Source: Cohaesibacteraceae bacterium (GTDB lineage: Bacteria > Pseudomonadota > Alphaproteobacteria > Rhizobiales > Cohaesibacteraceae). From it: DNA of 11,777 nucleotides. The stretch is taken from contig JAESRR010000195.1 in the NCBI GenBank assembly GCA_016764535.1, positions 2,624 through 14,400 of the forward strand. Reading direction: 5' to 3'. The number at the start of each line of letters is the position of its first letter. The stretch's first letter is position 1. A program made the position numbers and the translations under genes. Shown here piece by piece: positions 43-11,777 of the stretch. The notes under the pieces were generated by a model. That model was given only the letters and a program-made list of their open reading frames with translations, was not told where the DNA came from and ran no database searches.

Positions 43-64
43 ATAGATAAAAGGAGTGCGGGCA

Positions 65-958
65 ATGTTTGGCCAGCGTCAAAAACGGGAAAAGTGGTTT
101 CTCCTGGCGCCAGCCATGATGTTGCTCGCACTCATCACCTTACTGCCACTGGTCAAAACGCTATGGTTGAGTTTTACAGACGCGCGGATTACGGCCCTTG
201 AAACGACAGTACAGTTCATCGGCATTGAAAATTATCGGTATGCCCTGACCGACACGGAATTTCTCGATGCCATTGGCCGAACATTGTATTTCACCTTTGT
301 ATCGGTGGGTCTTGAAGGTTTTCTGGGGGTTGGTATTGCACTTCTTTTAAATCAAAAATTTCGAGGCTGCTTCATATTGAGGGCAGTAATTATACTGCCC
401 TGGGCAGTGCCGACCATTGTCAACGCTGTCGCCTGGAGGATGATCTATCATCCCGAATATGGTGCCTTGAATTCCATGCTGTTCCAATTGGGATTTATCG
501 ATAATTATCGGAGCTGGATAGGAGACCCGGCAACAGCAATGAACATGGTGATCCTCGCAGACGTCTGGAAGAATTTTCCATTGATCGTTTACGTTACACT
601 CGCCGCACTTCAAACCATTCCAGGAGATTTGCTGAAAGCAGCTGCCGTTGAAGGCGCAGGAGCCATTAAACGTTTCCGCTCAATCGTATTGCCATGGATT
701 GTTGGACCGTTGCTGGTTGTTATGGTTTTGAGAACTATTGAAGCTTTTCGCGTTTTTGATATCGTCTATGTCATGACAAGAGGCGGCCCGGCAGACTCTA
801 CCAAAACAGCCAGTTTTTATGTCTATCAGGAATATTTTAGCTATCTGCGTTCCGGAAGTGGCGCATCCTATGCAGTGTTGGTTGCGGGTATCAGTGCTGT
901 GCTTATTCTGGCGTACTATTCAGGTGCGCGGCGTCAGAATGCAGGAACCCGGGCATGA
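65..958 (+). CDS. Sugar ABC transporter permease, MalF/ThuF-like
   Basis: This is one of two inner-membrane subunits of a carbohydrate importer (CUT1 type). It is 297 aa with about six hydrophobic segments; the first follows a short basic cytoplasmic tail. The cytoplasmic coupling loop is clear near residue 195 (AAAVEGAGAIKRFRSIVLP), the EAA-G-I-LP signature that contacts the ATPase. It lacks the large periplasmic insertion of E. coli MalF, as is normal for the short family members. AAGGAG at 51-56 sits eight bases before ATG 65; an in-frame GTG at 56 overlaps that ribosome site, so ATG 65 is preferred. Its stop overlaps the next start (ATGA), suggesting translational coupling. Substrate is not readable from the sequence; the glucokinase downstream suggests a glucose-containing sugar such as trehalose, maltose or sucrose. 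Confidence 0.93.
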   Translation: MFGQRQKREKWFLLAPAMMLLALITLLPLVKTLWLSFTDARITALETTVQFIGIENYRYALTDTEFLDAIGRTLYFTFVSVGLEGFLGVGIALLLNQKFRGCFILRAVIILPWAVPTIVNAVAWRMIYHPEYGALNSMLFQLGFIDNYRSWIGDPATAMNMVILADVWKNFPLIVYVTLAALQTIPGDLLKAAAVEGAGAIKRFRSIVLPWIVGPLLVVMVLRTIEAFRVFDIVYVMTRGGPADSTKTASFYVYQEYFSYLRSGSGASYAVLVAGISAVLILAYYSGARRQNAGTRA

Positions 959-1794
959 ACCGTTCAATTAAATATTCCATATTTCTTTACGCGACTGCGG
1001 TCCTGGTCACTTTGTTTACTTTACTTCCTCTTGTCTGGATCTTTCTGATGAGCATCAGTTCTCCACATGACCTGACGAAAGCACCTCTGGAATGGATCCC
1101 GTCGGAATTTGATTTTTCCAGATATGGTCGACTTGTCGATCTGGACAATGGTTCGGGTGAACGGTTTTTAAGTGCACTTCGCAATAGCCTCATGACAGCC
1201 GGAGGTGCAACTTTCATCGCGTTGTTGGTTGCGGTTCCAGCGGCTTATGCATTCTCTCGTAGAAACGCATCCATGGCTCTGTTGTTTGCCTTTTTGGCAA
1301 CAATAATGATGCCACCAATCACCTATATTTTGCCGTTATACGACATCTTTAGCCAATTCGGGATGCTCAACAGTACCACGACACTGATCATTGTTTATTC
1401 AGCCATGCTTCTACCGTTTGCAACATGGCTCATGAAATCCAACATAGATGTATTGCCTGTCGAAGTTGAGCATGCTGCTTTTATGGAGGGCGCCTCAACG
1501 CTATTCACGTTGCGACGGGTGGTTTTGCCATTGGCACGTCCGGCGATCGCGGCAACGGCGATATTGTCATTTCTTGTCGCCTGGGACGAGTTTTTCTACG
1601 CATTGATTTTTACCAATGATCTGACTGCCAAAACCCTGTCGGTCGCGATTGCCGATTTTTCGGCTGGGCGCGTTACTGATTATGGTGTAGTTGCTGCCGT
1701 TGGTGTTCTGGCAACCTTGCCTCCAGCGTTTCTTGCTATCTGTTTCCAAAAATTTATCGTGTCTGGTCTTGTTGCCGGCTCCGTAAAGGGTTGA
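955..1794 (+). CDS. Sugar ABC transporter permease, MalG/ThuG-like
   Basis: This is the second permease subunit of the same CUT1 importer, 279 aa, with the usual MalG length and a strongly hydrophobic first segment (about residues 8-32). A coupling loop is visible around residue 172 (HAAFMEGASTLFTLRRVVLP), matching the EAA motif that docks onto the MalK-type ATPase. It starts at an ATG overlapping the previous stop by four bases and ends at TGA 1792-1794, 11 bases before the ATPase ATG. The two permeases should pair as a heterodimer in the inner membrane. No frameshift or missing motif is seen. The sugar transported is inferred only from the neighbouring glucokinase. Confidence 0.93.
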   Translation: MNRSIKYSIFLYATAVLVTLFTLLPLVWIFLMSISSPHDLTKAPLEWIPSEFDFSRYGRLVDLDNGSGERFLSALRNSLMTAGGATFIALLVAVPAAYAFSRRNASMALLFAFLATIMMPPITYILPLYDIFSQFGMLNSTTTLIIVYSAMLLPFATWLMKSNIDVLPVEVEHAAFMEGASTLFTLRRVVLPLARPAIAATAILSFLVAWDEFFYALIFTNDLTAKTLSVAIADFSAGRVTDYGVVAAVGVLATLPPAFLAICFQKFIVSGLVAGSVKG

Positions 1795-1805
1795 AAAGGA
1801 GCTCC

Positions 1806-2957
1806 ATGGACATGCCTTCATTACAAAAACCGGATAATGAAACTTCAATTTCCTCAAAAATTCTCGAAGTTCGGGGATTGCACAAAAAATTTGGTGAAGT
1901 TGAAGTACTTAAAAATATAAATGTCGATCTGGATGACGGGGATTTTTTGGTCCTCGTTGGTCCATCGGGCTGTGGTAAATCAACATTGCTTTCCTGTATT
2001 GCGGGGCTGACAGAAACAACATCGGGTGTGATATCGATCGGTGGTGATGATGTAACCACGCTGGATCCGGCACAACGTGATATCGCTATGGTTTTTCAGT
2101 CCTACGCTCTTTTCCCCAACATGACGGTGGCGGAAAATATCGGTTTTGGCCTCGAAGTCAGACGTGTGCCTCTTGTGGAACGAAAACCCCTCGTGGAAAA
2201 AGCAGCTGCATTGTTAAAAATTGAGGACCTTCTTGACCGCAAACCAGCTCATTTATCAGGTGGGCAAAGGCAACGTGTGGCGATGGGGCGAGCTCTTGTA
2301 CGAGATCCAAAACTATTCCTGTTTGACGAACCGCTATCAAACCTGGATGCAAAATTGCGTGTGACAATGCGCACCGAGATCAAGCGACTGCATAAACGGC
2401 TCGGGGCGTCAATTATCTATGTCACTCACGATCAAATTGAAGCCATGACTCTGGCAACAAAAATAGTTGTCATGGAAGATGGTGTTGTACAGCAAACTGG
2501 TACACCTCGCGAGATTTATAACAATCCAGTCAATATGTTTGTCGCCGGATTTATGGGGGCACCGTCAATGAATTTGATGCAGGCAGATATTGTAGTCAAA
2601 AACGATGTCGCACATATAACGATTGAAAGAGAAAACGATCAACCTCTGGTGCTACAGGACGATGCACCTCCATCAGCGGTTCTGGATAGACAAAATGGCT
2701 CGCTTGTTCTGGGTATCCGTCCGGAATCAATGACCGATTCCACAGCACCAGACAAACAGGTACGAATTGTAGATTGTTTACTTGATGTTGTGGAACCTGC
2801 CGGATCTGACACCTACGCGGTGATCAAAATGGGCGGGATAGAAGCGATTGCAAGATTACATGGTGAAGCCAGTGTAAAGCAGGGCGAACGCACCGGAATT
2901 GGTTTTAACATGTCACGATTATCATATTTTGATCCTGATACAGGGCTGCGTCTATGA
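1806..2957 (+). CDS. Sugar ABC transporter ATP-binding protein, MalK/UgpC family
   Basis: This cytoplasmic ATPase powers the sugar importer. All nucleotide-binding motifs are present in order: Walker A GPSGCGKST (about residues 52-60), Q-loop QSYALFP, signature LSGGQRQR, Walker B with catalytic Glu in LFDEPLSNLDAKLR, and the switch His in THD. The C-terminal third is a TOBE/OB-fold regulatory domain, marked by LGIRPE, as in MalK and UgpC. At 383 aa it is close to the usual length of about 360-370 with a short N-terminal extension. AAGGAG lies at 1796-1801; ATG 1806 is four bases away and ATG 1812 ten bases away, so either may be used. A TTG at 1791 overlapping the previous stop is less likely. 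Its stop overlaps the glucokinase start. Such ATPases may serve several permeases, so it could also supply the ugp system at the right end. Confidence 0.95.
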   Translation: MDMPSLQKPDNETSISSKILEVRGLHKKFGEVEVLKNINVDLDDGDFLVLVGPSGCGKSTLLSCIAGLTETTSGVISIGGDDVTTLDPAQRDIAMVFQSYALFPNMTVAENIGFGLEVRRVPLVERKPLVEKAAALLKIEDLLDRKPAHLSGGQRQRVAMGRALVRDPKLFLFDEPLSNLDAKLRVTMRTEIKRLHKRLGASIIYVTHDQIEAMTLATKIVVMEDGVVQQTGTPREIYNNPVNMFVAGFMGAPSMNLMQADIVVKNDVAHITIERENDQPLVLQDDAPPSAVLDRQNGSLVLGIRPESMTDSTAPDKQVRIVDCLLDVVEPAGSDTYAVIKMGGIEAIARLHGEASVKQGERTGIGFNMSRLSYFDPDTGLRL

Positions 2958-3928
2958 ACCATGTTCAGGCTGTTGTTGCTGACATAGGCGGCACTAACAC
3001 ACGAATTGGTGTTGTCAACGATGAGCAATTGCAACAATCGAGTATAAAACACTATTCCAATATTGGTTTTGAAAATTTTGAAACACTGTTGGGGATGTAT
3101 TGTCAGGAGCAAGGCATTAACCGTTGCGATACAGCTTGCATAGCTGTTGCTGCACCAGTGGTCGATGACAATATTACGCTGACAAATCACAACTGGTGCT
3201 TGACAAGGCGAGGCCTGAAAGACGTAACAGGTGCAAAAAACATATCATTTCTCAATGATTTTGAAGCCCTTGCACTTTCCCTTGATCGGGTTGACCCGGT
3301 GAATTTGATGCATCTGTCAAAGTCTTCCCAACACGGTGTGCCAGAGGGAACCAGACTTGTAGTTGGTGCGGGGACCGGATTTAATTCTGCTTCTGTGAGT
3401 ATAAATAAAAACAGTGCCGATCTGATCGTTGGTGTTGGAGAAACCGGACATATGACATTACCGGTTGAGACGATAATGGAGTTTGAACTACGGGAATATC
3501 TTGCCCGGGGCAGGGGACGGGCATCCATTGAGCGCGCGTTGTCGGGAGCAGGCCTTGTTGAAATTTATACCTGGTTGTGTGAAAGGGCGGGAATTCAATA
3601 TCATGGGTTAAGTGCCCGGGAAATTTCCGAAAGGGCCATTGTTGAAACCGACGGTATTTTTCGCAAGACTGCAGAAATATTGCTTCGTTTTTTTGGACGG
3701 TGTGTTGGCGACCTGGCGCTTGCATTCCTGTCAACTGGTGGGGTGTATTTGAGCGGCGGAGTAACACGCGCACTCAAACCTTTGCTTGATAGTGAATTGT
3801 TTTTCAAATATTTTTTAGCGAAAGGCAGGCAAAGCAGCCTCTTGTCAGGCATACCAGTGTATTTGATCGACGATGACGCGGCCGCTCTTGCCGGTTGCAC
3901 GGCAAAAGCAGTTTCACTTTCAAGATAA
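2954..3928 (+). CDS. glk: Glucokinase (PF02685 type)
   Basis: It phosphorylates glucose with ATP to glucose-6-phosphate in the cytoplasm. The 324-aa length matches E. coli Glk. Seen motifs: phosphate loop ADIGGTNTR at residues 9-17; SFLNDFEAL with the probable catalytic base Asp102; GAGTGFNSA; GETGHM; ALSGAGLVEIY; and the C-terminal LSGGV and IPVYLIDDDAAALAG blocks. This is the Glk family and not the ROK type, since the ROK zinc-binding CxCGxxGC motif is absent. Its ATG overlaps the ATPase stop (ATGA), so it is the last gene of the transporter operon and probably acts on glucose released from the imported sugar. It ends 11 bases from the convergent DUF899 gene, and I see no intrinsic terminator in that gap. 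Confidence 0.93.
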   Translation: MNHVQAVVADIGGTNTRIGVVNDEQLQQSSIKHYSNIGFENFETLLGMYCQEQGINRCDTACIAVAAPVVDDNITLTNHNWCLTRRGLKDVTGAKNISFLNDFEALALSLDRVDPVNLMHLSKSSQHGVPEGTRLVVGAGTGFNSASVSINKNSADLIVGVGETGHMTLPVETIMEFELREYLARGRGRASIERALSGAGLVEIYTWLCERAGIQYHGLSAREISERAIVETDGIFRKTAEILLRFFGRCVGDLALAFLSTGGVYLSGGVTRALKPLLDSELFFKYFLAKGRQSSLLSGIPVYLIDDDAAALAGCTAKAVSLSR

Positions 3929-3939
3929 ATTCGGAATAC

Positions 3940-4647
3940 TCATGCCTGGGAAGGATAACTGTCTCTTCGTTTGAGCCAGGACATTGAATAATCCAGATCA
4001 CTTTCATTGCGGCCAAGCGGTGTTAGATCAAGAAAATGATAGGCACCGTTCATCATATCAAGGCCACGTGAATATGTGGAGTAGGAATGGCAGATTGTAC
4101 CATCTTCAAGCCGGATGAAAACACTGATTCCCGGCATTTCATCCTGGAATGATTTTCCGGAATAATTATATCCCGGGCCCTCGGTCGTTTGACCATCATC
4201 GCAGGAACTCACACCAAAATCGGCGTTAAACCCGGTTCCATTGGAAGATACCCACGGGAAACTCCAGTTCAGACGTTTTCTGTATGTGTCAATCTGCTCC
4301 ATAGATGCGTTTGAAATAGCGACGAATGACGTATCCCGAGCCTCAAGATGTGGTGCAATGTAATTGAAATTATCTGCCCAGAATGAACAGCTAACGCAGC
4401 CTTCCTGCCAGTCTGGACCATACATGAAATGGTAAACCACCAGTTGGGTGCTGTTGCCAAACAAGTCTCCCAACGATTTTTTGCCGTTCCCGGATTGAAA
4501 AATATACTCATTTTCAATTTTCACAAATGGCAACTGTCTTCGTTCTTCAGTTAAGGCATCGCGGGCTTTTGTAAATGCCTTTTCTTTTTCAAGAAACTTT
4601 ATCCGGGCTTTGAGCCATTCCTGACGGGATACAATCGGGTTGTCCAT
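3940..4647 (-). CDS. DUF899 family thioredoxin-like protein
   Basis: This 235-aa protein matches the DUF899 family, which has a thioredoxin-like fold and no settled function. An N-terminal helical stretch (SRQEWLKAR to about residue 37) is followed by the core. LVVYHFMYGPDW leads into a CVSC pair at residues 84-87, a CxxC redox position, followed by SFWAD. The C-terminal block TYSRGLDMMNGAYHFLDLTP is typical of the family. No signal peptide is visible, so it is probably cytoplasmic. Start ATG at 4647 has an AGAGGA ribosome site about eight bases upstream. It lies 90 bp downstream of the molybdoenzyme gene on the same strand, with its own promoter-like and palindromic sequences, so it may be separately controlled. 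A redox role is inference. Confidence 0.88.
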   Translation of the reverse strand: MDNPIVSRQEWLKARIKFLEKEKAFTKARDALTEERRQLPFVKIENEYIFQSGNGKKSLGDLFGNSTQLVVYHFMYGPDWQEGCVSCSFWADNFNYIAPHLEARDTSFVAISNASMEQIDTYRKRLNWSFPWVSSNGTGFNADFGVSSCDDGQTTEGPGYNYSGKSFQDEMPGISVFIRLEDGTICHSYSTYSRGLDMMNGAYHFLDLTPLGRNESDLDYSMSWLKRRDSYPSQA

Positions 4648-4667
4648 TTGGCGTCCTCTTCACAAAC

Positions 4668-4687
4668 AATAAACTAAATGGTTTATT
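4668..4687 (-). promoter_or_regulatory. Palindromic operator candidate upstream of the DUF899 gene
   Basis: AATAAAC and GTTTATT form perfect 7-bp inverted arms around a 6-bp centre in which one further pair matches. The site lies 21-40 bases before the DUF899 ATG and overlaps a GATAAT -10-like hexamer (- strand, plus 4685-4690) and its expected start point; the matching -35 is weak. This is where a dimeric repressor would act, and the TAAAC-N-GTTTA style is common among TetR-family operators. No regulator gene is in the window, so the binding protein is unknown. Confidence 0.45.
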
Positions 4688-4737
4688 ATCATGGAAAATT
4701 CAAACATGCAACCAATTGGTATTATATTTTTGAAATG

Positions 4738-5529
4738 TCAAATGCCAGCGTACCAGGCATAACCGCGATCTTCCCAATAACCACCATTGCCCCGGGCTAT
4801 ATCTTTTAGTGTCGCAACAAGTGTGATTGATTTAACATATTTGGCATGCTTGTAGCCCAGCTGGCGTTCCACTCTCAAACGCAATGGAGCACCGTTTGCT
4901 ACAGGTAGTGTTTTTTGATTTAGACCATATGCCAGTATGGTTTGTGAATGCATTGCATCAACCATATCGATACTCTCATAGTATTTAACCGAGCCGGATA
5001 GCCCACGTTCCATAGTGTCAAAACAATCAAATACAGCGAATCTGGCTTCAGGGTGAGGCTTGGCCATCTCCAGAATGGTGGACAGTTGAACTCCTGTCCA
5101 TTCCCCGATGCAGCTCCATCCTTCAACGCAATCATGACGGGTTATTTGGGCGCGCGCAGGTAATTTTCTTAAAGTATCAAGATCCAGAGAAAGTTCGTTC
5201 CCTACAAGTCCGTTCACTTTGAGACTGTAATCACTGAACTGGTTTGATGCTAGATTAAGGTAATCAACATCCCGGGGTGAGATTGTTCCGTTAGCGTGCT
5301 GTTGCTGACGAATATCACTACGTTGATATTCGCGGGCGAGACTGGTGCCACTGGAAAGCCAGCGTTGAACGCGAAAAGATAAACTGCTGGCACTTTCGAG
5401 TATGGTTCGAGCTGTATGGCCTGATTGAATGAGTGGGTCGAGGCGATTGCATCCTCCAAGAGCAATGGCGCTGCCAGTCGCAAGAGTAGTCCCGAGCAGG
5501 CGTCGACGGGTAATGTTGATATTATTCAT
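4738..5529 (-). CDS. Sulfite-oxidase-family molybdopterin oxidoreductase, Tat-exported putative lipoprotein
   Basis: This is a molybdopterin-binding oxidoreductase (PF00174 fold) of 263 aa, probably acting in the periplasm with the cytochrome b encoded upstream. The N-terminus TRRRLLGTTLATGSAIALGGC has a twin-arginine motif at residues 8-9, a hydrophobic stretch and an LGGC lipobox with Cys27, so it is probably Tat-exported and lipid-anchored. Cys134 in RHDCVEGWSCIGEWTG aligns with the molybdenum-ligand Cys of YedY/MsrP (RCVEAW) and sulfite oxidases. NGAPLRLRVERQLGYKHAKYV is the conserved cofactor and substrate region. ATG 5529 is preferred because GGAGG lies eight bases upstream; a longer form from 5565 would bury the Tat motif. 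It overlaps the cytochrome b stop by eight bases. Substrate is unknown: sulfite, a sulfoxide (MsrP-like) or another small molecule. Confidence 0.9.
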   Translation of the reverse strand: MNNINITRRRLLGTTLATGSAIALGGCNRLDPLIQSGHTARTILESASSLSFRVQRWLSSGTSLAREYQRSDIRQQQHANGTISPRDVDYLNLASNQFSDYSLKVNGLVGNELSLDLDTLRKLPARAQITRHDCVEGWSCIGEWTGVQLSTILEMAKPHPEARFAVFDCFDTMERGLSGSVKYYESIDMVDAMHSQTILAYGLNQKTLPVANGAPLRLRVERQLGYKHAKYVKSITLVATLKDIARGNGGYWEDRGYAWYAGI

Positions 5530-6382
5530 CGGATGAACCTCCGGTTGATTTGGGCGAAGCTTCAATGCGATATCGCCCAGTCACAATTGATCTGACCAGG
5601 TTAATCGGACCGGCGGCAAGGATCATGATCATGTGAATTATAAAGAACCCCGACAGGATGAACATGAACAAAAAATGTACTGTTCGTGCGGTTTGTCGCC
5701 CCCCGAATATCTCTGTTATCCCGGGAAAAATGGCATTGAACCCTGGTGACATCGCCAGACCTGACAGAATTATTATTGGAAAAACGACAAACAAAATAAT
5801 TCCATAAGTCAGTTTCTGGATGGAAACATATTGAGCTGTATGGTAAAATTTCAACTTTATATGATTGAGAAAATCTGCCTTCAATGATCTCAAATCCTGA
5901 CCGCCCGGGATCAAATCCTTGCGTATGTGTCCATTGACCAACCCTGAAACCAGCCAGATCAGAAGTGTGAAAACGAAGAACCATGCAAAGAAAAAGTGAA
6001 CCCGTCGACCTCCGGCAAGATCCTGTCCCGATGGCAGTGTTAACCAGGCTGGAAAAGCCCGGGCACTGTCAAAACCGTTGGTCTTGCTTATTCCAAGAAA
6101 GCCCGTTGTATCGAGCCGGATACCGAATAAGTCGATAAACCCGGTTCCGGTTTTGTAATTGGCACCGATCTCAAGAATTCGGTTACTGAAATCGAACCCT
6201 GATTGATCGCCGATATACAGCACTGGATGCGCATTAAAAATTTGCAATCCCGAAAGCAGCAAAAAGAACAGGCAAATTGCCCAGCTCCAATGGGTAACCC
6301 TTGTTAGAAACCGGTGACGTAATATTAATTTGGTATTTGTTGCACCATGCGACGTTGAAATTTTTTTTGCTGGCCATTTCAT
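5522..6382 (-). CDS. Cytochrome b561-type membrane electron carrier
   Basis: This 286-aa integral membrane protein belongs to the prokaryotic cytochrome b561 / hydrogenase-formate dehydrogenase cytochrome b class (PF01292). Four main membrane segments are seen, near residues 25-50, 129-150, 188-212 and 234-258. Likely haem-ligand histidines are His31 (THW), His129 (RRVHFFF), and His236 and His250 in the last helix (HFLFMF, IIHM). A loop of about 80 residues separates helices 1 and 2. It presumably passes quinol electrons to, or takes them from, the molybdoenzyme whose start it overlaps. GGAG lies nine bases before ATG 6382, and an ECF-type promoter element lies 34 bases further upstream. It differs from MsrQ/YedZ, which has more helices of a ferric-reductase type. 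Confidence 0.9.
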   Translation of the reverse strand: MKWPAKKISTSHGATNTKLILRHRFLTRVTHWSWAICLFFLLLSGLQIFNAHPVLYIGDQSGFDFSNRILEIGANYKTGTGFIDLFGIRLDTTGFLGISKTNGFDSARAFPAWLTLPSGQDLAGGRRVHFFFAWFFVFTLLIWLVSGLVNGHIRKDLIPGGQDLRSLKADFLNHIKLKFYHTAQYVSIQKLTYGIILFVVFPIIILSGLAMSPGFNAIFPGITEIFGGRQTARTVHFLFMFILSGFFIIHMIMILAAGPINLVRSIVTGRYRIEASPKSTGGSSDE

Positions 6383-6415: not shown

Positions 6416-6444
6416 AGAACGGAACTGATCGGAAAACAGTTTCA
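6416..6444 (-). promoter_or_regulatory. ECF-type promoter candidate for the cytochrome b / molybdoenzyme operon
   Basis: On the - strand this reads TGAAAC, a 17-base spacer, then CGTTCT, followed by TTCTTG. Both hexamers and the spacing are identical to the element before the FAS1 gene (7780-7808). The hexamers resemble the GGAAC/CGTT pattern recognised by many ECF sigma factors. The -10 ends 33 bases before ATG 6382, a suitable distance. The divergent ECF sigma gene starts 95 bp away, so control by that sigma is a reasonable inference. Confidence 0.7.
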
Positions 6445-6538
6445 CGTGATCTCAAATTAGTTGCTGGAATTATTACTACCAGTCTGCATAGTATGCGGCT
6501 CAGGAATTCTTCCTGTTCGTTATTCGCAGGAAGCTTGA

Positions 6539-7081
6539 TTGGCAACGCCCGGAGACATCGCTAAACTTATTGGACGTACGGCTCTTGGAGACAGAAATGC
6601 CTTCGACGCGCTTTATGCGCATACCTCTGCGAAACTTTTTGGCGTGTTGTTACGTCTCTTAAGGGACAGGGCAGAAGCTGAAGACGCGTTGCAGGAAGTC
6701 TATATCAAAATCTGGCAGCGCTCTTCGCAATACGCACAATCTGAATCCAGCGCTATGTCGTGGCTGATCGTGATTGCACGATATCATGCTATCGATCGGT
6801 TAAGGGCGAGGAAAATGCCCTTGCTGCCAATTGATGATAGTTTTGAAATCGTCGACAAGGCTCCTGATCCTGAAGCCAGTGCCCTGGCGTCATCGCAAAG
6901 GGCGCAAATTGATGAATGCCTGGCGCGCCTTGAAAAGCAGAAGGCAAATGCAATTCGAGGTGCATATCTTGAGGGGTATTCCTATCAGGAGCTGGCAAAC
7001 AAAAACGATATACCGCTGAATACCATGCGAACCTGGTTGAGGCGGAGCTTATTGAAACTAAAGGAGTGTCTTCAGGAATGA
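6539..7081 (+). CDS. ECF RNA polymerase sigma factor, SigK-like
   Basis: This is an extracytoplasmic-function sigma-70 factor, 180 aa. Region 2 spans about residues 10-92, with RDRAEAEDALQEVYIKIWQR (promoter melting and core binding) and SWLIVIARYHAIDRLRAR (-10 recognition). Region 4 spans about 120-178, with the helix-turn-helix YSYQELANKNDIPLNTMRTW contacting the -35. The TTG start is forced: an in-frame TGA sits directly before it at 6536-6538, the next Met is inside region 2, and AGGAAG lies five bases upstream. Cys127 and Cys177 are the only cysteines and flank region 4. Its end overlaps the anti-sigma start (ATGA), the standard sigma/anti-sigma pairing. Likely targets are the two TGAAAC-N17-CGTTCT promoters. 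I did not find that element before the sigma gene itself. Confidence 0.93.
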   Translation: MATPGDIAKLIGRTALGDRNAFDALYAHTSAKLFGVLLRLLRDRAEAEDALQEVYIKIWQRSSQYAQSESSAMSWLIVIARYHAIDRLRARKMPLLPIDDSFEIVDKAPDPEASALASSQRAQIDECLARLEKQKANAIRGAYLEGYSYQELANKNDIPLNTMRTWLRRSLLKLKECLQE

Positions 7082-7773
7082 ACGGCGAGGAACATATGAC
7101 GGACAGAGAGAGCGACGATGCGCTCGCTGCTGAATTCGTCCTCGGCGTTCTTGATGAGGCCGATCGACTGGCGTGTGAACAACGGATGCAGTCAGATGCC
7201 GGTTTCGCGAAGGCGATACAGCAATGGCAGATACAGTTTTCGGCCATGGATGATGGTTTTACGGATGAGGCTCCACCAGCCGGGTTAAAAGCTGGCCTTG
7301 ATCAACGTTTGTTCGGAAATCAAGCAAAGCAAAATGATGGTTTTTGGTCCCGATTGTGGTTCTGGCGCGGATTGTCCGGAGCAGCACTTGCAGGGTTTGT
7401 AGCGGTCGTTTTGCTATTGGTTTTGGAACCTGGATCAAATGCAAATAACGATATTTATATTGCGTCTCTTTCAAGTGAAGCAAGCGATGACAGTTTTATC
7501 GTGTTATTTGAGACAGGCAATGAATCGTTGCGAATTCAGCAGGTGTCAGGCGAAATAGCTTCTGATCGGGATTATGAATTGTGGCTCATTGTCGGGAATA
7601 ACCCGCCTTCTTCTCTTGGCTTGATAAATGGCCAGATCAACACATCCACAATGGAAAATCGTGATGTTGTAGAGGGTGTTACCCTCGCAGTTAGTCTTGA
7701 GCCAAAGGGCGGCTCGGTAACTGGCTTGCCGACAGGACCGGTCATCGCGGTTGGGATTGTTAAAAAAATATAG
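7078..7773 (+). CDS. Membrane anti-sigma factor, RskA (anti-sigma-K) family
   Basis: It probably holds the preceding sigma factor inactive at the inner membrane. The N-terminal cytoplasmic part has the SDDALAAEFVLGVLDEADR helix found in zinc-less anti-sigma domains; the HxxxCxxC zinc motif is missing. One transmembrane segment follows, near residues 98-118 (GAALAGFVAVVLLLVL). A periplasmic RskA domain (PF10099) comes last, with DYELWLIVGNNPPSSLGLI and the ending LPTGPVIAVGIVKK. Two starts are possible: ATG 7078, overlapping the sigma stop with AAGGAG at 7061-7066, and ATG 7096 with GAGG five bases upstream; the second gives 225 aa and also fits the family. Release probably needs proteolysis or a redox change, as described for RskA; the signal here is unknown. 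Confidence 0.9.
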   Translation: MNGEEHMTDRESDDALAAEFVLGVLDEADRLACEQRMQSDAGFAKAIQQWQIQFSAMDDGFTDEAPPAGLKAGLDQRLFGNQAKQNDGFWSRLWFWRGLSGAALAGFVAVVLLLVLEPGSNANNDIYIASLSSEASDDSFIVLFETGNESLRIQQVSGEIASDRDYELWLIVGNNPPSSLGLINGQINTSTMENRDVVEGVTLAVSLEPKGGSVTGLPTGPVIAVGIVKKI

Positions 7774-7779
7774 ATAATT

Positions 7780-7808
7780 TGAAACTTTTCTGAAGTCCGG
7801 GTCGTTCT
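7780..7808 (+). promoter_or_regulatory. ECF-type promoter candidate for the FAS1 gene
   Basis: TGAAAC at 7780-7785, a 17-base spacer and CGTTCT at 7803-7808 lie in the 79-bp gap after the anti-sigma stop, with the -10 ending 44 bases before the FAS1 ATG. The element and the following TTCCTTG match the - strand element at 6416-6444 almost exactly. It would give the FAS1 gene its own sigma-dependent transcript in addition to read-through from the sigma/anti-sigma genes. Confidence 0.7.
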
Positions 7809-7852: not shown

Positions 7853-8410
7853 ATGTTCAAATTGATTGGTAAAATCGCCCTCACTGCAATGATTTCTGCT
7901 TCTGCAATATCCATGGCAAATGCCGGCAATCCCATAGTCGGGGGTGCTCCAATGTTTGAAACAAAAAACATCATTGAAAATGCGATAAATTCCAAAGATC
8001 ACACAACACTGGTTGCTGCGGTGAAAGCAGCTGGCCTTGTTGAAACACTGCAGGGCGAGGGGCCGTTTACTGTGTTTGCACCGGTTAATGCTGCATTCGC
8101 AGCCTTACCGGCAGGGACGGTCGAAACTTTGCTAAAACCTGAAAACAAGGATCAACTTGTTAAAATTTTGACCTGTCATGTTGTTGCTGCAAATGCGCTT
8201 TCCAGCGCCATTCAAAAAATGGTCGCTGATGATGGGGGAGCACATGTCATCAAAACAGTTGGCGGTTGTGAGTTTACTGCGATGTATCAGGACGGAGTGG
8301 TCTGGATCAAGGACGGTCAGGGCAATCTGGCTTCCGTCACTATTGCGGATGTCAAACAATCCAATGGTGTCATACACGTCATCGACAAGGTTCTTTTACC
8401 TGCTTCCTGA
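7853..8410 (+). CDS. Secreted fasciclin (FAS1) domain protein
   Basis: This 185-aa exported protein consists of one FAS1 domain, the fold of MPT70/MPT83 and other adhesion or envelope proteins. A Sec signal peptide covers residues 1-24, ending SMANA before GNP. The domain's first conserved box is FTVFAPVNAAFAALP (about 72-86) and the second is GVIHVIDKVLLP at the C-terminus. In the central YH motif region the sequence is LTCHVV, with Cys108 in place of the Tyr; with Cys139 (GGCEF) it could form a disulfide in the periplasm. ATG 7853 has AAGGA seven bases upstream; the longer frame from 7814 would disrupt the signal peptide. It follows the sigma/anti-sigma pair, has its own ECF-type promoter and ends before a strong terminator. 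Ligand or partner is unknown. Confidence 0.93.
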   Translation: MFKLIGKIALTAMISASAISMANAGNPIVGGAPMFETKNIIENAINSKDHTTLVAAVKAAGLVETLQGEGPFTVFAPVNAAFAALPAGTVETLLKPENKDQLVKILTCHVVAANALSSAIQKMVADDGGAHVIKTVGGCEFTAMYQDGVVWIKDGQGNLASVTIADVKQSNGVIHVIDKVLLPAS

Positions 8411-8433
8411 TAATTTCCGGTGGGCAAATAGGG

Positions 8434-8463
8434 GGGCGCTGCTATTGCGGCGTCCTTTTTTTT
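8434..8463 (+). terminator. Intrinsic terminator after the FAS1 gene
   Basis: GGGCGCTGC (8434-8442) pairs with GCGGCGTCC (8447-8455) through nine positions, two of them G-U wobbles. The stem closes a TATT loop and is followed directly by eight T residues. It lies 23 bases after the FAS1 stop, so it ends the sigma / anti-sigma / FAS1 transcript. Confidence 0.9.
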
Positions 8464-9722: not shown

Positions 9723-11033
9723 ATGAAGTTTCGTAATTATGCGCTGGGTGCAGCGTTTTTTGCTGCGGCAGGTCTGGTGGCTGGAAGTGCTACCGCTGCT
9801 GAAAAAATTGTATGGTGGCATGCCATGGGTGGCAAGCTGGGTGAAACAGTTAATACAATTTCCAAGGATTTTAATGCGTCGCAGAGCGACTATGTGCTGA
9901 CCCCCGTCTATAAAGGTGGTTATGAGGATACGATGACTGCCGCTATCGCAGCATTCCGTGCCGGTGAGCAACCAAACATTGTTCAAATTTTTGATGCAGG
10001 CGCTGCAACAATTATCAATGCCAAGGGTGCCATTGTTCCCGTGCAGGATTTATTGGAGGCAAATGGCGGCAACTTTGATATTAATGATTACATCTCTGGT
10101 GTACGTTATTTCTATGCCGATGAAGATGGCAAAATGATTGGCATGCCTTTCAACTCTTCAACGCCTCTTCTTTATTACAATAAGGAAGCTCTTGCCAAAG
10201 CCGGTGTTGATGCGCCCAAAACCTGGGAAGATTTTGAAGCTATTGCTCCAAAGTTGAAAGAAGCAGGTTATATCGGTCTTGCACAGTCTCATTCCCCATG
10301 GATTTTCTCTGAAAACTTCCATTCGCGCCATAACATCCAGCTTGCATCCAACAACAATGGGTATGGCGGGGCAAAAGGCACAACGATCAACTACAACAAT
10401 GATCATCTGAAAATGCACTGGAGTAAAGTTCTCGAGTGGAAGAAAAACGGCTGGTACGAATTTTATGGTCGCTCATGGGGTGACAACCAGAAAGCCTTTA
10501 CCGAGAAAAAAGTTGCCATGTGGCTCGGTTCATCCGGATCTTTTGGTGGTATGAAATCAGCCGGTATTGTTGATTTTGGAACAACCTATTTGCCGTATTG
10601 GAATTCTATCAACAAAGATGCTGGAAGTACGTTTATCGGCGGTGCAGCCCTTTTTGCAATGTCTGGTAAAACAGATGCAGAAAATATGGGTGTTGCAGAA
10701 TTCTTTAAGTTCCTCACAAAACCTGAAACTCAGTTCTTCTGGCATCGTCAAACCGGCTATGTGCCGATCACCGAAGCTGCGTACGAGCTGGCTAAATCCG
10801 AAGGTTATTACAAAGAGCAACCTGATGCGGAAATTGGCATCAAGCAGCTTAGCCTTCCAGGTGGTGAGTGGACGAAAGGCTACCGTCTTGGTTACTATGT
10901 TCAGATCCGCGAAGTAATGAACGCGCAATATGAAAAAATGTTCGCTGGTGATGTAACAGTCGACGCCGGCTTTAAGGTGATTGAAGAAGAGTCAAACAAA
11001 CTTCTCAAACGCTTTGCTAGAACCGTTAAATAA
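9723..11033 (+). CDS. ugpB: UgpB-like periplasmic substrate-binding protein (glycerol-3-phosphate / glycerophosphodiester ABC)
   Basis: This is the periplasmic binding protein of a glycerophosphate-type ABC importer, 436 aa. A Sec signal peptide covers about residues 1-25 (ending GSATAA), with mature start EKIVWWHAMGG. It aligns along its length with E. coli UgpB: WH(A/S)M, YKGGYED, FNSSTP, SSGSF, TGYVPIT and the C-terminal TKGYRLG...QIR are all kept, and these include most ligand-contact positions. At E. coli's paired tryptophans (GWQGW) this protein reads SHSPW, so His190 replaces the first and Trp193 keeps the second. GGGAG lies seven bases before ATG 9723; an in-frame upstream start at 9576 would bury the signal peptide. 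A UgpA-like permease follows. The upstream array suggests phosphate control. Confidence 0.9.
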   Translation: MKFRNYALGAAFFAAAGLVAGSATAAEKIVWWHAMGGKLGETVNTISKDFNASQSDYVLTPVYKGGYEDTMTAAIAAFRAGEQPNIVQIFDAGAATIINAKGAIVPVQDLLEANGGNFDINDYISGVRYFYADEDGKMIGMPFNSSTPLLYYNKEALAKAGVDAPKTWEDFEAIAPKLKEAGYIGLAQSHSPWIFSENFHSRHNIQLASNNNGYGGAKGTTINYNNDHLKMHWSKVLEWKKNGWYEFYGRSWGDNQKAFTEKKVAMWLGSSGSFGGMKSAGIVDFGTTYLPYWNSINKDAGSTFIGGAALFAMSGKTDAENMGVAEFFKFLTKPETQFFWHRQTGYVPITEAAYELAKSEGYYKEQPDAEIGIKQLSLPGGEWTKGYRLGYYVQIREVMNAQYEKMFAGDVTVDAGFKVIEEESNKLLKRFARTVK

Positions 11034-11043
11034 TTAAACGGTT
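11021..11043 (+). repeat. Inverted repeat across the ugpB stop codon
   Basis: AACCGTT (11021-11027) and AACGGTT (11037-11043) are perfect 7-bp inverted arms around a 9-base AT-rich loop that contains the TAA stop. Only short T runs follow, so it is not a full terminator. A hairpin here could stabilise the binding-protein mRNA or reduce read-through into the permease, as is common in ABC operons. Confidence 0.4.
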
Positions 11044-11105
11044 GATTTTGGACTTTTCGGGAGAGGGTGCCGGCAAGGTATCCTCTTCTGAATGTGGGGG
11101 GTCAA

Positions 11106-11777
11106 GTGAAGAAAGTTCAGTTCCGGCATCCATATGTGCCGTATATGTTGTTGTTCCCGCAACTGGCGATCGTTGGAATATTCTTTTTCTGGCCGGCCGC
11201 CCGGGCCGTTTATCAGTCCTTCCTTTTGGAAGATGCTTTTGGTCTTTCGAGCGAGTTTGTCTGGTTTTATAATTACGAAGAATCGGTTTTCTCTTCGGCT
11301 ACCTATCTTGATTCGTTCCTGTTTACGCTGGTGTTTTGTGCGATTGTTGCATTGCTTTCACTGGGTTTTGCACTTTTGCTGGCAGTGCAGGCTGACAATG
11401 TTGTGCGTGGCCAGTCGAGTTATAAGACGCTTCTGATGTGGGTATATGCGGTTGCGCCTCCCGTTGCCGGAGCGTTGTCCCTGTTTCTCTTTGATATTCA
11501 TATCGGACCGTTACCCAAATATTTTGCGTCTCTTGGCTGGACATTTGAGCCTGGTATATCGGGATTTGATGCTGTTTTCTGGGTTACGACGGCAGCTGTC
11601 TGGAAGCAAATATCGGTGAATTTTATATTTTTCCTTTCAGGGCTGCAGGGTATTTCCATGGCAGTCAGGGAAGCTGCGCTCATTGAATGCAAGAGCGGTT
11701 GGCGACGTTTTTGGACGATAACATTCCCACTGCTTGCGCCGACCAGTTTTTTCCTTCTGGTGATCAACATCACCTAT
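11106..11777 (+). CDS. ugpA: UgpA-like ABC transporter permease (5' part, runs off the window)
   Basis: Inner-membrane permease of the glycerophosphate-type importer; 224 codons are present and the frame is still open at the last base. The start VKKVQFRHPYVPYMLLFPQ resembles UgpA N-termini, followed by the first membrane helix (IVGIFFFWPAARAVYQS). YAVAPPVAGALSLFLFD and WKQISVNFIFFLSGLQ match E. coli UgpA closely. The coupling loop reads REAALIECKSGWRRFWTITFPLL: Glu-Ala-Ala is kept, but Cys-Lys-Ser precedes the Gly. GTG 11106 is chosen by alignment; a G-rich stretch at 11096-11101 is the only ribosome-site candidate, and in-frame GTGs at 11094 and 11067 are alternatives. The 72-base gap after ugpB holds an inverted repeat. 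ugpE and the ATPase would be expected next. Confidence 0.9.
   Translation, partial: MKKVQFRHPYVPYMLLFPQLAIVGIFFFWPAARAVYQSFLLEDAFGLSSEFVWFYNYEESVFSSATYLDSFLFTLVFCAIVALLSLGFALLLAVQADNVVRGQSSYKTLLMWVYAVAPPVAGALSLFLFDIHIGPLPKYFASLGWTFEPGISGFDAVFWVTTAAVWKQISVNFIFFLSGLQGISMAVREAALIECKSGWRRFWTITFPLLAPTSFFLLVINITY

Follow-up and report, generated by a model that had tools for sequence, protein, structure and literature searches.

The stretch of DNA considered here (hereafter the window) is 11,777 nucleotides long and comes from Cohaesibacteraceae bacterium, a member of the Alphaproteobacteria (assembly GCA_016764535.1, contig JAESRR010000195.1). It carries a gene for an extracytoplasmic function (ECF) sigma factor of the SigK-like kind, a gene for an RskA-type anti-sigma factor and, to either side of this pair, genes for a secreted fasciclin (FAS1) protein and for a cytochrome b with a periplasmic molybdoenzyme. 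One promoter-like element precedes both flanking units, and a further copy lies within the coding sequence of the sigma gene, pointing to the anti-sigma gene. Judging from the sequence, we think it fairly probable that this intragenic copy is a sigma-dependent promoter for the anti-sigma gene (rskA) and that, together with a small envelope-protection regulon, it makes up a circuit with negative feedback.

The Sigma–Anti-Sigma Pair and the Flanking Genes

The sigma gene (6539–7081, + strand) matches Pfam PF04542 and PF08281. The nearest solved chain is SigK 4nqw (E 1.5e-26), and cysteines 127 and 177, which are 50 residues apart, align with the cysteine pair of that structure. The gene scored 135.5 bits with the SigK model NF007228, which has a cut-off of 226, and its best-scoring model, NF009167, fell just under the cut-off (260.7 of 265 bits). 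The anti-sigma gene (7066–7773, +) has the RskA C-terminal domain (PF10099, E 5.7e-16, 59.4 bits vs. a cut-off of 29.4). As read from the sequence, its start is probably the ATG at 7078, which overlaps the sigma stop.

The pair was followed across 54 sigma loci, namely the window, L008–L025 from a first search (E ≤ 2.9e-29) and L037–L071 from a second (E ≤ 9e-34), with sigma identities of 34–100%. Copies from the window's own genome (L005–L007, L090, L091) were left out of these counts, as were, among the matches listed, L026–L036 (28–34% identical, E 1.1e-27 or worse) and L072–L089 (21–31%). C127 is present in all 54 sigma genes and C177 in 53. An RskA match adjoins sigma in 51 of the loci, L020–L025 among them; L069 and L070 have none. 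A search for the sigma gene in viral contigs gave no match.

The FAS1 gene (7853–8410, +; PF02469, E 8.2e-34) has by eye a signal-peptide-like N-terminus. Its product matches TGFBI, 1w7d, and more weakly MPT70. In the stretch examined, a FAS1 gene is present in 36 of the 54 loci. On the opposite strand, the cytochrome b561-type membrane subunit (5522–6382, –; PF01292, E 9e-17) overlaps the gene of an MsrP/YedY-like molybdoenzyme (4738–5565, –; PF00174, E 1.1e-31). The latter likely starts at the ATG at 5529, and its N-terminus is twin-arginine-like by eye. Its nearest solved chain is 1xdq (E 5.4e-20), which we take to be YedY of E. coli. The enzyme falls short of the MsrP cut-off (97.8 bits with model NF003767, of 207), and its cytochrome partner matches PF01292 only and not as an MsrQ-type partner, MsrQ being presumably of a different family.

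Two Elements before the Flanking Genes

An earlier note on this DNA had proposed TGAAAC-N17-CGTTCT as a promoter shared by the flanking units, and its placement of the two copies is correct. One copy stands at 6416–6444 on the – strand (read from 6444 to 6416; TGAAACTGTTTTCCGATCAGTTCCGTTCT), before the cytochrome b and molybdoenzyme genes, and the other at 7780–7808 on the + strand (TGAAACTTTTCTGAAGTCCGGGTCGTTCT), before FAS1. The spacer is 17 in both, the distance from the -10 hexamer to the start codon is 33 bases in the first (ATG at 6382) and 44 in the second (ATG at 7853), and the ECF sigma gene sits between the two, again as the note had it.

Could the two matches be mere chance? What speaks for it is the count in the host draft genome (3.86 Mb, 302 contigs, 87% complete), where TGAAAC-N16-18-CGTTCT occurs six times and likewise six times in the reversed control. 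The bare 12-mer is therefore no marker of a regulon by itself. Within the window, however, 200 shuffled versions gave 0.01 matches on average and in no case the two observed, so the claim of non-randomness at this scale stands. Placement before start codons and conservation in relatives also contradict chance, which we regard as extremely improbable. The pattern TGAAACT-N15-17-CGTWNTT occurs twice genome-wide, exactly at the two window sites, and once in the reversed control.

The element itself had to be redefined. A weight matrix was trained on 24 FAS1 sites, with the window and its nearest relative (L008) excluded, and used with a threshold of 16. In the training sites, the -10 is constant only in CGT and in a T four bases on. 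This constancy of CGT only and the control-level count of the 12-mer rule out CGTTCT as a fixed -10 hexamer; the constant cores of the element are TGAAACT and CGT. The downstream likeness of the two copies (CGTTCTTTCTTG and CGTTCTTCCTTG) is present in the window, as had been pointed out, but does not recur letter for letter in other FAS1 promoters. Both copies lie outside the training set and score well above threshold, 20.6 before cytochrome b and 19.4 before FAS1.

The element proved to be conserved in orthologous loci. Thirty-five of the 36 FAS1-bearing loci, the window included, have [TC]GAAAC[TC]-N15/16-CGT within 300 bp upstream of FAS1, the exception being L068 (Paracoccus), which by eye has CAACTTC...CGTG before FAS1 instead. 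The same replacement of TGAAACT...CGT is seen by eye behind rskA at L066:6250–6320 and L068:6240–6310, both from Paracoccus. Since CAACTTC...CGTG stands at the expected place, the -35 may have drifted in these loci. Over the 54 loci (422 kb), the matrix gave 77 matches of at least 16, vs. 0.8 per shuffled set. Of these, 36 fall within the sigma gene and 34 upstream of FAS1, the latter including the 24 training sites; 2 precede cytochrome b, and the remaining 5 are in L017 (one), L064 (two), L024 (one) and L070 (one). The L024 site precedes, by eye, a FAS1-like start whose gene is cut by the end of the locus. The L017 site (1311–1340, –) is 49 nt before the ATG of a secreted DUF7282 gene (845–1261, –) divergent from sigma. 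No site of this strength precedes FAS1 in L008 and L068; the L008 site reads TGAAACTTAATC...CGTTATT.

A stricter pattern, searched in 28 genomes, matched in 14 and added a second FAS1 gene (L118) and two photolyase genes (L125 and L127), the latter both in Rhizobium-type genomes that also carry the sigma cassette. The photolyase genes (L125:19–1461, –; L127:1569–3011, +) have TGAAACTTTTGATCCAC...CGTA[GC]CT 38–39 nt before a TTG start. Four matches to the pattern were set aside as chance: L093 and L096 (G003) fall in reading frames that are 502 and 506 codons long and share one strand, no long gene follows L094 (G059), and L121 is at the start of or within a VirB4/TrbE-like gene.

A Third Element inside the Sigma Gene

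The third copy, at 6630–6659 (+), was overlooked in the first reading of the window. It reads CGAAACT-N16-CGTCTCT (CGAAACTTTTTGGCGTGTTGTTACGTCTCT; score 20.3), covers sigma codons 31–41 in region 2.1 and points to the anti-sigma gene. A search with TGAAAC and CGTTCT could not find it because its first base is C and its -10 reads CGTCTC.

Intragenic sites scoring at least 16 are present in 36 of the 54 sigma genes, whereas 0.63 are expected under synonymous resampling, in which codons are redrawn from each locus's own usage (the null being built on few genes per locus). The codon alignment there is mostly xCG-AAA-CTY ... CGT-RTC, and AAA and CGT are kept at third-position GC contents (GC3) of up to 0.91. 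The two codons, K32 (AAA) and R39 (CGT), are the -35 and -10 cores, respectively. Codon changes were scored per gene on the protein tree for the 85 columns in which 35 or more genes share one degenerate amino acid. K32 and R39 are the least changed of these, with 2 changes in 53 genes and none in 51; the other arginine columns tested had 9–24 changes.

Such constancy might have a source other than transcription. If only the intergenic promoters are real, the intragenic likeness would come from constraint on the protein, on codon use or on the mRNA (translation, folding). Region 2.1 is indeed conserved as protein, and other columns are codon-constrained too, chiefly at the 3' end of sigma where it meets rskA, plus I56 and Q52. 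But the 36 sites observed far exceed the 0.63 expected, the two least-changing columns are the cores of an independently trained motif at its 17-base spacing, and the distant ECF genes compared (the dropped rows L026–L036 and L072–L088) do not carry the codon pattern. We therefore consider this explanation unlikely. Agreement in purine or pyrimidine after CGT between FAS1 and intragenic sites (3/7 vs. 0/28, p 0.005, kinship uncorrected) is suggestive only.

How widespread is the exact intragenic pattern? In a scan of the class, CGAAACT-N16-CGTNTCTT matched 9 of 385 genomes, once each, vs. 7 in the reversed control, and is thus rare in the class as sampled. By reading frame, four of the nine are in sigma genes (the window, G054, G439 and G403) and five are not. 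G439 and G403 are outside the order and have the pattern in frame in sigma genes that are followed by anti-sigma-like frames.

The Region Upstream of Sigma

None of the 54 loci has a same-strand site of at least 16 within 300 bp upstream of sigma. Locus L064 is built differently from the window. Its sigma gene lacks the intragenic site and ends a series that encodes an FAD-dependent oxidoreductase, DUF1365, cyclopropane synthase, DUF2147 and DUF2177 proteins (592–4857), while the motif stands at the head of that upstream series (517–546); a divergent site (451–480) precedes a DUF1295 gene. The gene set presumably resembles the surroundings of mycobacterial sigK.

Because no comparable promoter stands in front of sigma, the freed sigma factor would raise its inhibitor and not itself. 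We lean, on the strength of the sequence comparisons, toward a dual-coding account in which codons of region 2.1 double as -35 and -10, and sigma activates its inhibitor rather than its own gene across the SigK-like lineage of Alphaproteobacteria. With the same modest leaning, we would say that the arrangement persisted while the proteins diverged to 35–40% identity, and was given up where another sigma-dependent promoter heads the operon.

The Cytochrome b Half of the Proposed Regulon

The cytochrome b gene was searched for in 61 genomes. Eleven have a match, and in eight, including the window's, the match is strong (E < 1e-70); G042 has two such copies. Outside the window there are thus eight strong copies, two of which (in G009 and G034) are preceded by a site of at least 16. 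In G009, sigma and the operon diverge as they do in the window, and the site scores 23.2. In G034, the site scores 17.2 and lies 46 nt before the ATG, on a contig other than that of the sigma homologue. Both are out of sample for the matrix. Of the other six, five have no site. A case in point is G024, whose sigma is 58% identical and whose operon is present with no site before cytochrome b. The sixth is a second G042 copy of the cytochrome b and molybdoenzyme genes (L108), which has only a weak match to the motif upstream (10.8) and lies divergent to an ECF sigma gene of another kind, 27% identical.

The proposal of a single regulon accordingly fared differently in its two halves. The FAS1 half holds in 35 of 36 loci; that of cytochrome b is confined to part of the lineage, with a site at 2 of the 8 copies from relatives. 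On the sequence data, a regulon joining FAS1 with the cytochrome b/molybdoenzyme operon is supported; the link is real for some of the lineage and missing from the rest. We infer that the flanking elements depend on this sigma factor. The host genome (G000) has at least four matches to the sigma query, and another ECF sigma could in principle serve the elements, with the present gene a mere neighbour. This seems to us very unlikely, because the motif travels with this sigma–anti-sigma pair (35 of 36 FAS1 loci) and because none of the three genomes (G047, G051, G053) that have the cytochrome b operon and, among the matches listed, no close relative of the sigma has the site before the operon.

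Some further features of the window may be recorded. A DUF899 gene (3940–4647, –) lies on the same strand as the molybdoenzyme gene, 90 nt 3' of it. A terminator-like hairpin with a T run lies 3' of FAS1 (8430–8459, +); it is a consensus match only, five such being found in the region vs. 4.4 expected. The cassette is flanked by sugar ABC transporter genes with glucokinase (56–3928) and by the binding protein and permease of a second sugar ABC transporter system (9723–11777).

A Proposed Circuit Wired for Shut-Off

The following scheme would account for these observations. A SigK-like ECF sigma factor and its RskA-type membrane anti-sigma control a regulon through TGAAACT-N15/16-CGT. Two copies of the element would drive the flanking genes, those of the cytochrome b and the MsrP-like molybdoenzyme on one side and that of the secreted FAS1 protein on the other. 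The cytochrome b and the molybdoenzyme probably pass electrons from quinol to the repair of oxidised periplasmic targets. The signal is probably photo-oxidative or other oxidative stress, which would be sensed via RskA and the cysteine pair of sigma and would free the sigma factor. The freed sigma would then transcribe its targets and also, from the intragenic promoter, an mRNA for the anti-sigma without full-length sigma. As such a message would raise the inhibitor only, the loop should close by negative feedback.

Several findings weigh against this scheme. The intragenic site is about 415 nt (410–420) before the anti-sigma start, which is far for an rskA promoter. In 18 of the 54 sigma genes the site scores below 16, although 14 of these keep both AAA and CGT. 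L064, L066 and L068 have neither codon in place and L070 has no lysine there. The intragenic site is thus absent from L066 and L068, where inspection showed no replacement promoter; this slightly reduces the odds of the dual-coding account. Six loci of one Rhizobium subclade (L047, L048, L054, L057, L059 and L063) have TGAAACT with a 15-base spacer just upstream of sigma (scores 10.1–12.2), and because of this element sigma may be weakly self-activated there. The site before cytochrome b is missing from five of the eight copies in relatives and weak in one, as described. Finally, the loci are kin to each other, so the counts measure conservation and not independent events.

The distance to rskA also invites the view that the intragenic site binds the sigma–RNA polymerase complex as a roadblock or repressor of the sigma gene, and is not a start for rskA. 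In that case, too, the feedback would be negative. The site is near the beginning of the sigma gene and far from rskA, and the evidence for a promoter (36 of 54 vs. 0.63, and the constancy of the codons) fits a roadblock equally well; moreover, Streptomyces sigma-E is reported to act as a direct repressor (PMC10771440). We nevertheless find a roadblock improbable: the intragenic element has the two cores of the promoters at the same 17-base spacing, and for an anti-sigma promoter inside a sigma gene there is a worked precedent, Corynebacterium sigH–rshA.

In the usual picture, an ECF sigma factor activates its own gene, and the anti-sigma is carried in the same operon. If the intragenic element does act as an rskA promoter, many SigK-like systems of Alphaproteobacteria would be wired for shut-off instead. 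Feedback would also become directly testable, as synonymous recoding of two codons would uncouple the anti-sigma from sigma. The regulon would tie a secreted member of the FAS1 family, the role of which is unclear, to a repair-type molybdoenzyme of the periplasm and, in relatives, to DNA photolyase. The link of these three suggests that the setting is oxidative damage to the cell envelope.

Comparison with Known Systems

The known system closest to the present pair is SigK–RskA, as in M. tuberculosis (SigK, ECF18) and Yersinia (SigK, ECF19), which it resembles in the RskA-type anti-sigma, the two cysteines 50 apart and the presence of FAS1 in the cassette. The cassette mpt83-sigK-rskA, with a SigK site, is said to be conserved even in Gram-negatives (PMC7509140). 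According to the same source, the SigK cysteines (C133 and C183) occur in 94% of ECF18, 56% of ECF19 and <2% of other members, and matter for activity (PMC7509140). The window differs from SigK–RskA with MPT83/MPT70 by its alphaproteobacterial host, by the cytochrome b/molybdoenzyme operon in the regulon and by the promoter-like site within sigma (mycobacterial sigK was not examined for one).

By analogy, the setting is likely extracytoplasmic oxidative damage. Singlet oxygen induces a pair in R. capsulatus that resembles SigK/RskA, and both a photolyase and a fasciclin gene are listed in the table of the R. sphaeroides RpoE regulon (PMC7074977). In the present loci, too, the motif precedes photolyase and FAS1 genes. 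In RpoE–ChrR, however, the promoter differs from the present motif, and the anti-sigma of the window matches RskA_C only, no ChrR domain being found in it with Pfam. In M. kansasii, expression of two FAS1 genes and a photolyase rises in light (PMC9861118), and the reference list of another paper (PMC12826043) holds a title on a fasciclin protein in the photo-oxidative stress of Azospirillum.

YedY-type reductases under ECF control serve resistance to reactive chlorine in Azospira and Brucella (PMC5748585; PMC8315932). These systems, SigF/NrsF–MrpX–YedY1 and BcrS/AbcS–BcrXQP, are similar to the window in that an ECF pair switches on an adjacent periplasmic reductase of the YedY type. They belong to ECF16 and have NrsF, an anti-sigma of six helices, together with a methionine-rich peptide, whereas in the window the anti-sigma is of the RskA type and is accompanied by FAS1 and a cytochrome b of PF01292; no Pfam match to the six-helix anti-sigma (DUF1109) was found in the window, where RskA_C is found instead. 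An ECF sigma also controls a periplasmic molybdoenzyme in ECF26 (RpoE4/SigE) with SorT/SorA, where the promoter is GGAAT-CGTC (PMC6527743; PMC6180224). The SorT and SorA models stay far under their cut-offs in the window (31.6 of 570 and 57.2 of 600 bits), and the different promoter and enzymes rule out a sulfite-responsive system of the ECF26 type.

Promoters of an anti-sigma gene inside the sigma gene have been met before. Those of E. coli rseA lie inside rpoE. In C. glutamicum, rshA is transcribed by itself from a SigH-dependent promoter that lies in sigH, and sigH is on housekeeping promoters, an arrangement for which quick shut-off has been proposed (PMC3489674). The likeness to the window, at the level of sequence here, is in a promoter sequence of the sigma's own type on the sense strand of the sigma coding region and in the lack of a strong self-promoter. 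The ECF type, the phylum and the promoter are different. Moreover, the start lies 62–66 nt before rshA in C. glutamicum and the present site about 415 nt before rskA, overlapping region 2.1, and an intragenic site of the window type, unlike that of sigH, is conserved over many genera. In the open-access PMC literature, no paper was found that describes a promoter within the SigK-like sigma genes of Alphaproteobacteria. In sum, the cassette of FAS1, sigma and anti-sigma is of a known kind, and the new part is the conserved intragenic copy of the element with the shut-off circuit that it implies.

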